Source: Emcibacteraceae bacterium
Lineage (GTDB): Bacteria > Pseudomonadota > Alphaproteobacteria > Sphingomonadales > Emcibacteraceae
DNA length: 64,000 bases
Direction: 5' to 3'
NCBI GenBank assembly: GCA_021774795.1
Contig: JAJFIR010000036.1
Location: 1-64,000 of the forward strand
Position 1 is the stretch's first letter. Every line of letters starts with the position of its first letter. The position numbers were made by a program, and so were the translations under genes. The notes under the pieces were generated by a model. The model had not been told where the DNA came from. It did not search any database and saw only the letters and a list, made by a program, of their open reading frames with translations. Of this stretch, positions 40,945 to 54,780 are shown piece by piece.

Positions 40945-41542
40945 ATATTTCTCTTAATTTGTTCAACAACGCTAACATGGGCATGCCTTGAATAGCATGA
41001 TATTCGCCTTCTATATTAGAAAAAAGATGAATACCTAAACCTTCAATATAATAACCCCCTACCGATTGCAGCAAAGCATCCCCCGCTTTACCTATATATT
41101 CTTCCAAAAATTCATCGGAGAAATTCCACATGGATAATAGAGGTCGGCTTGTGTTTTTCCAGATTACTCTGCCATTTAGCACCACCGCAATGGATGTAAC
41201 AAGCTCATGAGTTCTTCCTCTAAAAAATTTCAGGTGATTGCGCGCTTCTTCTATGTTCTTGGCTTTATCATAATGTTTGCCATCACACACAAGAATTTGA
41301 TCGCCGCCGATGATAAGACTTTCCAGATGACTTTTGGAAACAGACAGTGCTTTTTCGCAGGCAAGTGCTTCGGCTATCTGCTCGAAGGTTGCGCCCGTCC
41401 CGGACATTCTTGTCTTTATCTCGTCCTCATCCACGCCAGAAGATATTGTTTCAAACTTTAAGCCAGCGTTTTCCAGGACTTTCTTGCGGGACTTACTTTT
41501 TGAGGCGAGTATTATCTTACTACTGTTGATTTTCTTCATCAT
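40937..41542 (-). CDS. maf: Maf-type nucleoside triphosphate pyrophosphatase
   Basis: A house-cleaning nucleotide pyrophosphatase (modified bases or dTTP/UTP, depending on subfamily). The 201 residues hold the family start ILASKSKSRKKVLENAG, IIGGDQILVCDG and the block GGYYIEGLG. It overlaps the ppsR gene by 23 bases and aroE by 8, so translation is probably coupled. The subfamily cannot be set with certainty. Confidence 0.93.
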   Translation of the reverse strand: MMKKINSSKIILASKSKSRKKVLENAGLKFETISSGVDEDEIKTRMSGTGATFEQIAEALACEKALSVSKSHLESLIIGGDQILVCDGKHYDKAKNIEEARNHLKFFRGRTHELVTSIAVVLNGRVIWKNTSRPLLSMWNFSDEFLEEYIGKAGDALLQSVGGYYIEGLGIHLFSNIEGEYHAIQGMPMLALLNKLREIYE

Positions 41543-42341
41543 ATTTATTTTTTAAGTTTATAATAGCGACAGACGTTTCTTCTATAGAGCGGCGGGTTAC
41601 ATCAACGGTTGGCCAGCCCATTTTGTTAAATAATCTTCTGGCCTCTTTAACTTCTTCTTTTACCAGTTCCTCGTCTACATAATCGGTGGTTTTGCCTTCC
41701 TTTAACATTAAAAGTCTGTTTCGACGTATCTGCACAAGCCGGTCAACACTGTTCACAAGTCCAACAACGAATTTGCATTTCGCATTTTCAAGCTCAGGAG
41801 GAAGCGGGCAGCCAGGTACAATCGGAATGTTTGCGGCCCTATATCCCCGGTTTGCCAAATAAATACATGTTGGCGTTTTTGATGTGCGCGATACGCCAAC
41901 AAGGATTATATCTGCTTCGCTTAAATTATCAGCAATTTGGCCATCATCATGCGCAAGCGTATATTGCATCGCATCTATTCGATCAAAATACTCATCGTCC
42001 ATCTTGTGCTGCAAACCCGGGCGCTCTGTCGGTTTTTTTCCCAAATGGCGCCCAAGTTCACGAATTATACCGTGCAAAACAGATATATAAGGCCACTTAT
42101 GTTTTTTACAGGCATCGACAAGAACTTTTTCAATATCATGGTCAACCAAGGTAAACATGACAATACCGGGATTGTCTTCCATTTCAGCAATTAATCGCTC
42201 CATGTGACGCGCGGTACGGATCATGGGCCAATAATGTTTAATGGGTTCTATACCGGGGAATTGTACTAATGACGCTTTTGCAACTTGCTCCAACGTATCA
42301 CCCGTTGAATCAGATACCAAATGCATGTGAATTTTTTTCAT
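41520..42341 (-). CDS. ppsR: Pyruvate, phosphate dikinase regulatory protein (DUF299)
   Basis: Bifunctional kinase/phosphorylase that switches pyruvate phosphate dikinase or PEP synthase off and on. The 273 residues start with HLVSDSTGDTLEQVAKA and have the P-loop GVSRTSKTPTCIYLA (about residues 150-165). It is the first gene to the left of the probable origin and reads away from it, as in Caulobacter and Rickettsia where this gene (RP001 type) faces hemE across the origin. Confidence 0.94.
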   Translation of the reverse strand: MKKIHMHLVSDSTGDTLEQVAKASLVQFPGIEPIKHYWPMIRTARHMERLIAEMEDNPGIVMFTLVDHDIEKVLVDACKKHKWPYISVLHGIIRELGRHLGKKPTERPGLQHKMDDEYFDRIDAMQYTLAHDDGQIADNLSEADIILVGVSRTSKTPTCIYLANRGYRAANIPIVPGCPLPPELENAKCKFVVGLVNSVDRLVQIRRNRLLMLKEGKTTDYVDEELVKEEVKEARRLFNKMGWPTVDVTRRSIEETSVAIINLKNKYDEENQQ

Positions 42342-42741
42342 AGTTTTCTTACGGTCCTATAAATAGTTTTTAATTGCCTTAATAACGGGGATAAGTCGTT
42401 ATTTTTGAAATATTGTTTTTTTTAATACCCCTAATTCGATTTTAATACATCTTTTATAAGCTTGTGGAAGAAAAAATGGCAGCTGATTTATAAATTTTAT
42501 TCTTTGATATTATTTCTATCAATTTACGCCGGAGCATTATATGTATATGCCTAGTTTTAATAAGGTTTCAAAAATATTATTTGAACTCTTTCTAATATAT
42601 TTTCTTGTTAGTAAAAAATGTAAATCCTGTGAATAAGTTATAATCCTCACTGTTCACAGGACCTCTTAACAACTACTATATTTATATATAAATAATATAT
42701 AAGTATTTTTATCAGTGTATAACATTAACGAATAAAGAAAC
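42342..42741. other. Probable chromosomal replication origin (oriC)
   Basis: A 400-base non-coding gap between the divergent ppsR and hemE genes, the place of the characterised Caulobacter origin. DnaA-box-like sites: TTATTCACA on the minus strand (42628-42636), CTGTTCACA (42650-42658), and weaker 7/9 matches at 42386-42394 and 42463-42471 (both minus strand). The tract 42662-42740 is nearly all A/T and suits an unwinding element. Genes on both sides nearest the gap read away from it. No CtrA-type TTAA-N7-TTAAC site with correct spacing was found. Confidence 0.75.
42625..42661. repeat. Perfect 9-base inverted repeat with opposed DnaA boxes
   Basis: TCCTGTGAA (42625-42633) and TTCACAGGA (42653-42661) are exact reverse complements 19 bases apart, each overlapping one DnaA-box-like site. 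It lies next to the A/T tract of the probable origin. There is no T-run after it, so it is not a terminator. Confidence 0.85.
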
Positions 42742-43779
42742 ATGGCAAATAACAAACTTTTTATACAAACATTACAAGGGAAAAAAACTGAGCGGGTCCC
42801 TTTCTGGTTTATGAGACAAGCGGGTCGTTATCTTCCTGAATATATGGCTTTACGTAAAGAAGCAGGTTCTTTTTTGGACCTATGTTATAATCCCGAATTC
42901 GCAACGGAAGTAACATTGCAACCCATAAGACGGTTTAATATGGACGCAGCTATATTATTCTCGGATATTCTGGTTATTCCTCACGCGCTTGGACAGGATT
43001 TGGCTTTCAAAGTAGGAGAAGGGCCTGTTTTAACACCCGTTGATAATTTGGAAAGGTTAAAAGCACTTTCAATAGAAAATCTTCATAAACATTTAAACCC
43101 GGTTTATCAGACGGTTACTAATTTAGCCGAAAAACTGCCCAATCATGTTGCGTTGGTTGGCTTTGCCGGCGCACCATGGACCGTTGCAACATATATGGTT
43201 AACGGTAAAGGATCCAAAGATCAGGCCGAAACAAGATTAATGGCCTATCAGGACAGAGAAACATTTCAAAAACTTATCGATTTACTGGTGCTTTCGACTT
43301 CAGAATATCTCATTAAACAGGTTGATCACGGAGCAGAAGCCTTACAAATTTTCGACAGTTGGTCGGGAACATTGCCAGCTGACGAATTCATAAAATGGTG
43401 TATTGATCCTGTAAAACAAATCGTAAAAAATATTCGGGAGGTACATCCGCATATTCCAATTATCGGGTTTCCAAAAGGTGCCGGGGCAAAAATAAAGAAT
43501 TTTGTCAAGAAAACCAAGGTAGATGCGGTAAGTATCGATACATCGACATCAACAACTTGGGTGCGTGATGTTGTGCAACCAATTTGTCCCGTGCAGGGTA
43601 ATCTGGATCCAATGTTGCTTGTTAGTGGAGGTGTACCCCTTGAAAAGGCTGTTTACCACATCCTTGATCATTTAAAAGCCGGCCCACACGTGTTTAACTT
43701 AGGACATGGTATTATACCTCAAACCCCGCCAGAGAATGTAAAGCGGGTATCTGATATTCTTCTTGCTTACAGAAAATAG
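42742..43779 (+). CDS. hemE: Uroporphyrinogen decarboxylase
   Basis: Makes coproporphyrinogen III in heme synthesis. The 345 residues start with the signature region VPFWFMRQAGRYLPEY (substrate-binding Arg), followed by ILFSDILVIP with the catalytic Asp and GFAGAPWTVATYM. It is the first rightward gene from the probable origin and heads hemE-hemH-hemJ; its promoter must lie within the origin region. Confidence 0.98.
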   Translation: MANNKLFIQTLQGKKTERVPFWFMRQAGRYLPEYMALRKEAGSFLDLCYNPEFATEVTLQPIRRFNMDAAILFSDILVIPHALGQDLAFKVGEGPVLTPVDNLERLKALSIENLHKHLNPVYQTVTNLAEKLPNHVALVGFAGAPWTVATYMVNGKGSKDQAETRLMAYQDRETFQKLIDLLVLSTSEYLIKQVDHGAEALQIFDSWSGTLPADEFIKWCIDPVKQIVKNIREVHPHIPIIGFPKGAGAKIKNFVKKTKVDAVSIDTSTSTTWVRDVVQPICPVQGNLDPMLLVSGGVPLEKAVYHILDHLKAGPHVFNLGHGIIPQTPPENVKRVSDILLAYRK

Positions 43780-50319: not shown

Positions 50320-50335
50320 TGTTCCACGTGAAACA
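50320..50335. promoter_or_regulatory. parS site (ParB binding), mnmE-mnmG gap
   Basis: TGTTCCACGTGAAACA differs at one base from the classic parS palindrome TGTTTCACGTGAAACA. It lies 8 bases after the mnmE stop and about 2.7 kb before parA, the usual place of centromere sites near the origin. Confidence 0.93.
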
Positions 50336-52332: not shown

Positions 52333-52955
52333 TGGCAGGCATTATGACTGCCGCAGAATTTGGCAAACACTGTAGTGTTCCACGTGAAACAATGGATCAA
52401 CTAATTTGCTATTCTGACCTGCTTGTAAAATGGCAAAAGTCAATTAATCTGGTAAGCGATACGACTATAGACGACATGTGGTGCCGCCATTTTTATGATA
52501 GCGCGCAACTTATTGATCTTATAGAGAAGGGCAAGGGGTCTCTAAATATACTGGATGTTGGCAGTGGTGCCGGGTTTCCCGGGCTCGTTCTTTCAGTTTT
52601 GGGAGCCGGGAAAGTGCATCTTATTGAGAGCAACAGAAAAAAATGTGCTTTTATGAAACAAGTTATTCAAAAAACGGGGATTGATGCTATTGTCCATAAC
52701 GAGAGAGTCGAAAAAATAAGCAATTCTTCGATAGATCTAATAACGTCGCGTGCTTGTGCGGATTTGGATAAATTATTAAGTCTCACGGCTAATTTAATCA
52801 CTCCCAAGACTGAATGTTTGTTTTTAAAAGGTGAAAAAGCGGAAGAGGAAATTAAACATGCATCAAAGAAATGGGATTTTAAAGTAAAAAAAATCCAAAG
52901 CAAAAGTGAAGAATCGGGTATAATCCTGAAACTAAGCGAAATAAGGGTATATTAA
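52332..52955 (+). CDS. rsmG: 16S rRNA (guanine527-N7)-methyltransferase
   Basis: Methylates G527 of 16S rRNA (GidB). Starting at the ATG at 52332, which overlaps the mnmG stop (TGATG), it has 207 residues with LVKWQKSINLVS, motif I LDVGSGAGFPGLVL (about 72-85), LIESNRKKCAF and ITSRACADLDKLL. Codons about 15-20 also form a parS site. It belongs to the mnmE-parB run. Confidence 0.96.
   Translation: MAGIMTAAEFGKHCSVPRETMDQLICYSDLLVKWQKSINLVSDTTIDDMWCRHFYDSAQLIDLIEKGKGSLNILDVGSGAGFPGLVLSVLGAGKVHLIESNRKKCAFMKQVIQKTGIDAIVHNERVEKISNSSIDLITSRACADLDKLLSLTANLITPKTECLFLKGEKAEEEIKHASKKWDFKVKKIQSKSEESGIILKLSEIRVY
52376..52391. promoter_or_regulatory. parS site (ParB binding) inside rsmG
   Basis: A second copy of the same 16-base site, TGTTCCACGTGAAACA, here within the first codons of rsmG and 2,056 bases from the first. 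About 600 bases before parA. Confidence 0.93.
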
Positions 52956-52983: not shown

Positions 52984-53004
52984 TTATCCACTATGTTATC
53001 CACA
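52984..53004 (+). promoter_or_regulatory. Tandem DnaA boxes overlapping the parA start
   Basis: TTATCCACT (52984-52992, 8/9) and TTATCCACA (52996-53004, perfect) are direct repeats 12 bases apart. The second covers codons 2-4 of parA. It is the only perfect TTATCCACA I found in the window. Confidence 0.6.
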
Positions 53005-53808
53005 GAATTGTCTGCGGTCACACGTAAGCCAGAGATCATCGCTGTTGCCAATCAAAAGGGCGGCGTAGGCAAAACAACGACGGCTATAAATTTGGCGACT
53101 GCGTTGGCCGCGATAAAAAAAGACGTACTCATTATTGATATGGACCCGCAAGGCAACGCAAGTACGGGACTTGGGCGCGATAGGAATGATCGCACTCACA
53201 GCAGCTACGAAGTGATCATGGGGGAGGTCTCATTAGCGGAGGCCATTGTCGATTCGATCGTGCCGGGGCTTCATCTTATTCCTTCCACGATAGATTTAAC
53301 CGGCGCCGAATTGGAACTCGTAGATCAGGATCAGCGGACATTTAGGCTGCGCCGCGCTTTTAGAGACCCCGTTCTTGAAAATTACGATTATGTGCTTATC
53401 GATTGCCCGCCTTCTCTAAATCTTTTGACATTAAATACATTGGCCGCAGCGCATTCCGTTATAGTGCCTCTGCAATGTGAGTTTTTTGCCCTGGAAGGAC
53501 TAAGCCTTTTGCTGCAAACAATAGAAACCGTTAAGGCGAATTTTAACCCGAGTTTGGAAATAGGCGGTATAATCCTGACCATGTTTGACAAACGAAACAA
53601 TTTGTCGGAACAAGTTGCGTTGGATGTTAGAAACTTTCTTGGGGACAAGGTTTTTGATACGGTAATCCCTCGAAATGTTCGAATATCCGAAGCACCCTCC
53701 CATGGTATTCCTGTTTTGCTATATGACCTAAACTGCACGGGAAGCCAAGCATATCTGCAACTGGCATCTGAGCTGTTGCGCCGAAGAAAAAAAGTGAAAG
53801 CAGCTTAA
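52993..53808 (+). CDS. parA: Chromosome partitioning ATPase ParA
   Basis: Walker-type ATPase that moves the ParB-parS complex toward the cell pole. The 271 residues have the deviant Walker A KGGVGKTTT (Lys22 to Thr30), IIDMDPQGNASTG and YVLIDCPPSLNLLTLN. The short N-terminal arm without an HTH is the chromosomal type. It lies 37 bases after rsmG, with DnaA boxes over its start. Confidence 0.97.
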   Translation: MLSTELSAVTRKPEIIAVANQKGGVGKTTTAINLATALAAIKKDVLIIDMDPQGNASTGLGRDRNDRTHSSYEVIMGEVSLAEAIVDSIVPGLHLIPSTIDLTGAELELVDQDQRTFRLRRAFRDPVLENYDYVLIDCPPSLNLLTLNTLAAAHSVIVPLQCEFFALEGLSLLLQTIETVKANFNPSLEIGGIILTMFDKRNNLSEQVALDVRNFLGDKVFDTVIPRNVRISEAPSHGIPVLLYDLNCTGSQAYLQLASELLRRRKKVKAA

Positions 53809-53841
53809 TTAATATATTAATATCAAGGACTTAACGATAAA

Positions 53842-54780
53842 ATGGCAAATAATAAACCTGCAACAAAAAACCAAAAGAAGGCATCAACACCAAAAATGGG
53901 ATTGGGAAGAGGCCTGTCGTCTTTGATGGAAACACGCGAGCCAGCGTATGATAAAGTTAATAATCCACCCGAAGAAAAAATTGGCTCCAATTCTGAAAAA
54001 GGTATTCCAATAGAGTTTCTGGTTACCAACACTTTTCAACCAAGGGTCTATTTTGATAAAGTAAAAGCAAAAGAACTGGTGAATTCGGTCCGGGAGAAGG
54101 GAATTTTACAGCCAATTCTTGTTCGCCCGAAAGGAATAAATCAATATGAGATTATTGCTGGGGAACGTCGTTGGCGTGCCGCCCAAGCGGCCGGGTTACA
54201 CGAAGTGCCGGTCGTCATCAGGGATCTGTCAGATTCAGAAGCACTTGAAGTAGCGATAATTGAAAATATTCAACGCCATGATTTAAACCCAATTGAAGAA
54301 GCTTGTGGCTATAAACGATTGATGGACGAGTTTTCCCATACTCAAAACGCTCTTGGCAAAGCGGTTGGGAAAAGCCGAAGTCATATCGCTAATATGTTGC
54401 GGCTTATCACACTGCCAGAAACTGTTCAGGAATTAATGAAAAATAGCGCGATCAGTATGGGGCATGCACGCGCATTAATCACTGCCGAAGATCCGGGAGC
54501 GCTTGCTATGCTCGTGGTCCGTGATGGACTAAGTGTCCGTCAAACAGAACTTATGGCCAAAAACTTAAAATCCACAAAAAACGGTAATACACCTGGGAAA
54601 TCTGGTCCGAAGAATAGGAAAGATCCTGACGCGATAGCGTTTGAAGAAGAGCTTTCGGCAACACTTGGTCTTAAAGTAAATTTGGAGTCTCACGGCGGCG
54701 AGGCCGGTGTATTGAAAATTCACTATAAATCGCTTGAGCAACTCGACGATATATGCCTTAAACTTAATAACGGTTCTTAA
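53842..54780 (+). CDS. parB: Chromosome partitioning protein ParB
   Basis: CTP-dependent DNA clamp that loads at parS and spreads. The 312 residues have GLGRGLSSLM at the N terminus, the CTP-site motif GERRWRAAQAAG (about 110-121), IIENIQRHDLNPIEEA, the helix-turn-helix with GKSRSHIANMLRL and a C-terminal dimerisation domain. Both parS sites lie within 3.6 kb upstream. Confidence 0.97.
   Translation: MANNKPATKNQKKASTPKMGLGRGLSSLMETREPAYDKVNNPPEEKIGSNSEKGIPIEFLVTNTFQPRVYFDKVKAKELVNSVREKGILQPILVRPKGINQYEIIAGERRWRAAQAAGLHEVPVVIRDLSDSEALEVAIIENIQRHDLNPIEEACGYKRLMDEFSHTQNALGKAVGKSRSHIANMLRLITLPETVQELMKNSAISMGHARALITAEDPGALAMLVVRDGLSVRQTELMAKNLKSTKNGNTPGKSGPKNRKDPDAIAFEEELSATLGLKVNLESHGGEAGVLKIHYKSLEQLDDICLKLNNGS

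Follow-up and report, generated by a model that had tools for sequence, protein, structure and literature searches.

The ppsR-hemE intergenic gap as the predicted chromosomal replication origin of a Kordiimonadales bacterium

The intergenic gap between ppsR and hemE (positions 42342 to 42741, no strand assigned) is very probably the single chromosomal replication origin (oriC) of this Kordiimonadales (Emcibacteraceae-like) bacterium, as judged from its sequence. The assignment is based on a genome-wide switch in strand composition, a gene address shared throughout the order, conserved DnaA boxes, and an adjacent minimum of duplex stability that is the lowest of the whole contig. The window, that is the entire stretch of DNA analysed here (G000:C30:1-64000), is part of a contig of 249,692 bases (~250 kb), which belongs to a genome of 3.93 Mb in 58 contigs. 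The literature was searched for work on oriC in the Kordiimonadales, and nothing on point turned up. To the specialist the result is expected rather than surprising. The gap has the appearance of an ordinary alphaproteobacterial origin, and its lack of recognizable CtrA sites is a modest departure for which precedents exist.

Gene address and neighbourhood of the gap

The gap is exactly 400 bp long with a GC content of 24% (0.24, compared with 0.38-0.47 in 2-kb windows), which corresponds to 76% A+T against ~57% for the 64-kb window. It is bordered on the left by ppsR on the minus strand (41520-42341; COG1806, the pyruvate, phosphate dikinase / PEP synthase regulator; NCBIfam NF003742, 328.6 bits) and on the right by hemE on the plus strand (42742-43779; uroporphyrinogen decarboxylase; TIGR01464, 408 bits). 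Within 42342-42741 no credible ORF was found, and a comparison with Rfam yielded no match to a structured RNA. The named relatives whose ppsR is ~90% identical are metagenome genomes of the Kordiimonadaceae and Emcibacteraceae, which places the organism among the Kordiimonadales within the Alphaproteobacteria.

The two genes are positioned head to head over a gap of 349-503 bp in all 27 loci that carry both sides, a set that includes the window and otherwise covers the genus, the family and one order-level genome. The same arrangement is found in 20 of 20 order-level genomes; one of these (G034) is common to both sets, leaving 19 further gaps. Origins have been located between hemE and COG1806 in Caulobacter (404 bp) and Rickettsia (383-396 bp) (PMC1914354). 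The first-pass annotation had proposed an oriC on this same premise, which the source confirms, and its description of a 400-base non-coding, AT-rich gap between divergent genes agrees with the coordinates given above. Among the features by which hemE-type origins are recognized (PMC1914354), the gap possesses the hemE and COG1806 neighbours, a length of ~400 bp, an A+T content above the genome mean and DnaA sites; the supporting CtrA sites (TTAA-N7-TTAA) and IHF sites (WATCAN5WTR) were not found in it. Both kinds of site are best regarded as supporting rather than essential evidence for membership, in the case of CtrA because some Wolbachia and Ehrlichia origins are without sites of the standard consensus. 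Of the features expected of origins in general, a GC-skew minimum and a predicted unwinding element adjoining DnaA boxes are both present.

Candidate segregation functions are encoded 7.6-12 kb to the right of the gap. Two parS-like sites (GTTCCACGTGAAAC, both plus strand) were noted, one at 50321-50334 in the mnmE-mnmG gap, 7.6 kb away, and the other at 52377-52390 inside the start of rsmG, 9.6 kb away. They are followed on the plus strand by parA (52993-53808) and parB (53842-54780), together spanning 52993-54780, where ParB was recognized by TIGR00180 and parA by ParA/MinD-type matches below cut-off combined with its position. Two DnaA-box sequences (TTATCCACT and TTATCCACA) are located at the start of parA (52984-53004), and together with a site at 52763 they make up the densest one-mismatch cluster of the contig; these boxes possibly reflect DnaA control of parAB, or chance occurrence in parA coding sequence.

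Strand composition and the position of dnaA

On the left side of the gap, GC skew in the window is negative for the most part, and on the right side it is positive. The cumulative skew of the whole 249,692-base contig is lowest at 42,775; the change point that fits best is 42,777 for the contig and 42,201 for the window. As the left arm of the contig is only 42 kb long, the analysis was widened to samples spaced over the entire circle of two closed relatives, the organism's own genome being represented by one contig. In the closed genome of the same genus (G012; 3,369,470 bases, 20-kb samples), 10 of 10 samples are positive from 1 to 1.64 Mb and 9 of 9 are negative from 1.80 to 3.26 Mb, with a local minimum at 3,288,717, which is 490 bp before the hemE start (3,289,207). 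In the closed genome of the same family (G014; 4,189,011 bases), the skew is positive to 1.6 Mb, approximately zero at 1.84 Mb beside the terminus and negative from 2.07 Mb, and the minimum, at 4,099,335, is found 240 bp inside hemE. The opposite skew switches are roughly antipodal in both genomes.

The first-pass annotation had named a skew minimum at some other place, such as beside dnaA, as a result that would speak against an origin in the gap; in all three sequences, the contig and the two closed relatives, the minimum is found at hemE, which supports the oriC reading. The single dnaA gene is located on the contig (C30:138,800-140,224), ~96 kb from the gap. In both closed relatives dnaA is encountered at ~1 kb of the record, and the distance from dnaA to the skew minimum is 80-97 kb in all three sequences. 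It might be argued that the origin adjoins dnaA, as in many bacteria, and that the ppsR-hemE gap is merely an A+T-rich divergent promoter region, a view to which the single dnaA and the numbering of both closed genomes from dnaA lend some colour. This is nevertheless highly improbable, given that the skew extremum is positioned at hemE in all three sequences, that from hemE to dnaA the contig shows a net rise in cumulative skew, that the 1.2 kb upstream of dnaA contain only one DnaA box (at most one mismatch), and that the distance to dnaA varies among relatives. A location beside dnaA was thus rejected on the basis of skew. Improbable to a still greater degree is a skew flip caused by a local reversal of gene orientation rather than by replication: the genes of the examined part do lie mostly on the minus strand before the gap and mostly on the plus strand after it, yet in the closed relatives the sign holds over arms of ~1.6 Mb and more, in samples taken every 180-230 kb irrespective of gene strand, and flips solely at the gap and near its antipode.

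In a third closed genome (G015), hemE is located at the very end of the record (L028, G015:C1:3142892-3145891) and dnaA at 330 kb (L075, G015:C1:328644-331850), so the position of dnaA with respect to the origin has changed within the family. The G012 and G014 records begin at dnaA, ~80-90 kb away from the hemE origin. The first-pass annotation had also placed the window at the chromosome start; the origin part of that statement stands, and the "start" is a matter of numbering convention, because closed relatives are numbered from dnaA or from elsewhere. In a separate region of the contig (~65-110 kb; L042-L044), the cumulative skew is flat to falling before it rises again, a pattern that may reflect either a recent inversion in the right arm or the acquisition of DNA there.

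DnaA boxes and the predicted unwinding element

DnaA boxes were counted as matches to TTATNCACA with at most one mismatch and compared with shuffled gaps. The counts per gap are 6.3 in 11 same-genus genomes (shuffles 0.8), 6.9 in 14 same-family genomes (shuffles 0.5) and 4.9 in 20 same-order genomes (shuffles 0.4). The gap of the window contains two such boxes versus 0.65 in shuffles, and it holds one TTATNCACA (42628-42636, minus strand; p ~0.03 against shuffles). Box density in the 64-kb window alone is not decisive (19 one-mismatch sites, 17 expected), and the gap does not rank first by box count among the clusters of its contig; it is the densest cluster in the sequence sampled from G012 (400 kb) and G014 (305 kb). 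The DnaA-box-like sites mentioned in the first-pass annotation are therefore substantiated by the conserved arrays of the relatives, and in the window taken alone they are weaker than was worded.

Box positions relative to the hemE start are common to the relatives, and the window retains all seven places, three with good boxes (42386, 42628, 42714) and four with degenerate ones (42463, 42606, 42641, 42650). Boxes 1 to 4 are on the minus strand. Box 1 (42386-42394; TTATCCCCG) is located at about -356 from the hemE ATG and reads TTATCCCC[AG] in nearly all relatives of the genus and family. Box 2 (42463-42471; TCTTCCACA) is degenerate, and in several same-genus genomes it is represented by TTATCCACA or TTATACACA, the place in relatives being -280 to -240. 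Box 3 (42606-42614; TTACTAACA), at about -136, is likewise degenerate and appears as TTATCAACA in most same-genus genomes. Box 4 (42628-42636; TTATTCACA), at about -115, is the best of the window and is TTATCCACA in several relatives. Two weak boxes follow on the plus strand: box 5 (42641-42649; TAATCCTCA), at about -102, with TAATCCACA in relatives, and box 6 (42650-42658; CTGTTCACA), at about -93 and facing the unwinding region, with TTATTCACA or TTATCCACA in several relatives. Box 7 (42714-42722, minus strand; TTATACACT) is found ~28 bp before the hemE ATG, where relatives carry TTATACAC at -28. An inverted repeat (TCCTGTGAA/TTCACAGGA, 42625-42633 and 42653-42661) coincides with the opposed boxes 4 and 6. 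When box footprints were defined from the relatives alone, the window agreed with the majority at 38 of 45 columns inside them and at 218 of 319 columns outside (Fisher p 0.035). Conservation of the modules (0.82-0.92 versus 0.61) is to be read as descriptive, since the modules were partly chosen by eye.

The predicted DNA unwinding element (42673-42722, no strand assigned) comes directly after boxes 4-6. Nearest-neighbour energies single it out: no other 50-bp duplex in the 250-kb contig is less stable, and among 400-bp stretches the minimum begins at 42,329 and practically coincides with the gap. The core of the element, TTTATATATAAAT, belongs to the best-conserved parts of the gap; A+T palindromes within the element are unsurprising at such a composition. 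A spacer and DnaA-trio-like CTA repeats occupy 42659-42678 on the plus strand (CTCTTA at 42663-42668 and CTACTA at 42673-42678; complement 3'-GAT-5'). The basal unwinding system (BUS) of Bacillus subtilis and others shares with the gap a forward DnaA box, a G+C-containing spacer, CTA (3'-GAT-5') repeats and a least stable stretch, and differs in that box 6 of the window is weak and followed by two trios. According to the published rule, three or more DnaA-trios should occur no further than 16 bp from a DnaA box (PMC8287927), and with its weak box 6 and only two consecutive trios the window falls short of it. At least three trios are present in L003, L017, L019, L020, L023, L025 and others, with the runs CTACTACTA in L003 and L020 and CTACTACTTTTTATT in L019 and L025. 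As the window itself has fewer than three, unwinding through the trios is inferred.

The conservation of the gap could alternatively stem from the promoters and leaders of hemE and ppsR, with the DnaA boxes serving as transcriptional control sites. Two promoters must be accommodated in the gap as the genes are divergent, weak sigma-70-like matches are present (for example 42653-42682, plus strand), and in Caulobacter DnaA acts as a transcription factor and the hemE promoter sits inside the origin. Promoter matches are, however, at chance level (5 versus 3.6 in shuffles), and promoters would explain neither the genome-wide skew switch nor the order-wide box arrays, so that as a substitute for an origin this explanation is scarcely credible. 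Promoter activity can hold in addition to origin function.

Control of initiation and relation to known origins

CtrA is the regulator that represses the Caulobacter origin. The gap contains no exact CtrA site (TTAA-N7-TTAA), and one-mismatch sites here are at the level of chance (8 observed, 6.4 expected); near sites are below chance in the family (0.57 versus 2.97) and in the order (0.20 versus 0.77). The suggestion of the first-pass annotation that CtrA sites of standard spacing seem absent can thus be extended: to judge from sequence, the lack of recognizable CtrA sites characterizes the order as a whole. Weak sites for CtrA, or sites of its second category, may be present at the origin. 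The IHF consensus (WATCAN5WTR) has no match in the gap of the window and occurs at about chance frequency in the relatives. GANTC, the CcrM site, is missing from the gap of the window, is nearly gone from same-genus gaps (L003-L014; 0.18 versus 1.15 in shuffles), and is about twofold enriched in order-level gaps (L096-L115; 5.5 versus 2.7 in shuffles). GANTC is depleted ~3.7-fold across the contig (232 versus 854 expected), so that zero sites in 400 bp mean little. Such depletion is known for alphaproteobacteria (PMC3973325). CtrA is encoded in the genome, its match to NF045991 (412.8 bits) exceeding the cut-off. A CcrM homologue scores 627 bits against NF050803, which is under the threshold of that model, and a GcrA homologue passes the cut-off of PF07750 but not that of NF050816; the regulators therefore exist while their recognizable origin sites do not. 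Besides the Wolbachia and Ehrlichia origins mentioned above, a precedent is Brucella abortus, whose CtrA has been reported not to bind the origin (PMC2877005).

In the proposed mechanism, DnaA would load on the box array, in which boxes 1-4 point to the left and boxes 5-6 to the right towards the A+T-rich stretch, and would extend from box 6 over the short spacer onto the CTA (DnaA-trio-like) repeats. The element at ~42,673-42,722 would then be melted by DnaA and loaded with helicases, from which two forks would depart, one leftwards via ppsR and the other rightwards via hemE-rho-parAB, and ParB acting at parS ~8-10 kb to the right would subsequently segregate the new origins. As recognizable CtrA sites are lacking, the timing of initiation would probably depend on DnaA level and activity and not on direct repression by CtrA. 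A more far-reaching proposal, advanced tentatively and with the balance somewhat against it, is that origins of the order either shed direct control by CtrA or never possessed it, and that in the genus GANTC is gone too, leaving timing to DnaA alone acting on unusually weak boxes, while CtrA and CcrM would have been retained for other functions.

Weak DnaA boxes were reportedly described in the Caulobacter origin by Taylor and colleagues in 2011, and would be a feature common to Caulobacter Cori and the gap of the window. The Caulobacter crescentus Cori is further similar in its hemE and COG1806/ppsR flanks, its length (404 bp versus 400 bp) and its A+T enrichment over the genome, and the distance to parS is comparable, within ~8 kb in Caulobacter (PMC4468827) and 7.6-9.6 kb here. 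In contrast to Cori, the gap has no recognizable CtrA or IHF sites and no GANTC, is much more A+T-rich, and is ~96 kb from dnaA. Rickettsia prowazekii and other Rickettsia share the hemE/COG1806 flanks, with an A+T content of 81-83% compared with 76% here (PMC1914354). Papers citing Brassinga et al. (2002) credit the R. prowazekii origin with CtrA and IHF sites, neither of which was found in the gap of the window. The predicted origins of Wolbachia, Ehrlichia and Anaplasma also adjoin hemE, measure ~400 bp and contain DnaA boxes, and differ in their left neighbour, which is COG1253 instead of COG1806/ppsR.

The analysis adds the skew sampling around the full circle, the map of DnaA boxes across the order, the predicted unwinding element, the link to parS and the order-wide absence of recognizable CtrA sites. 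In practical terms, the gap provides a correct zero point for numbering these chromosomes and a fragment for tests. By sequence evidence the hemE/ppsR origin address is extended to the Kordiimonadales, where this address appears to outlive its CtrA sites: flanks, DnaA boxes and predicted unwinding element are kept, and CtrA sites are at or below chance across the order.
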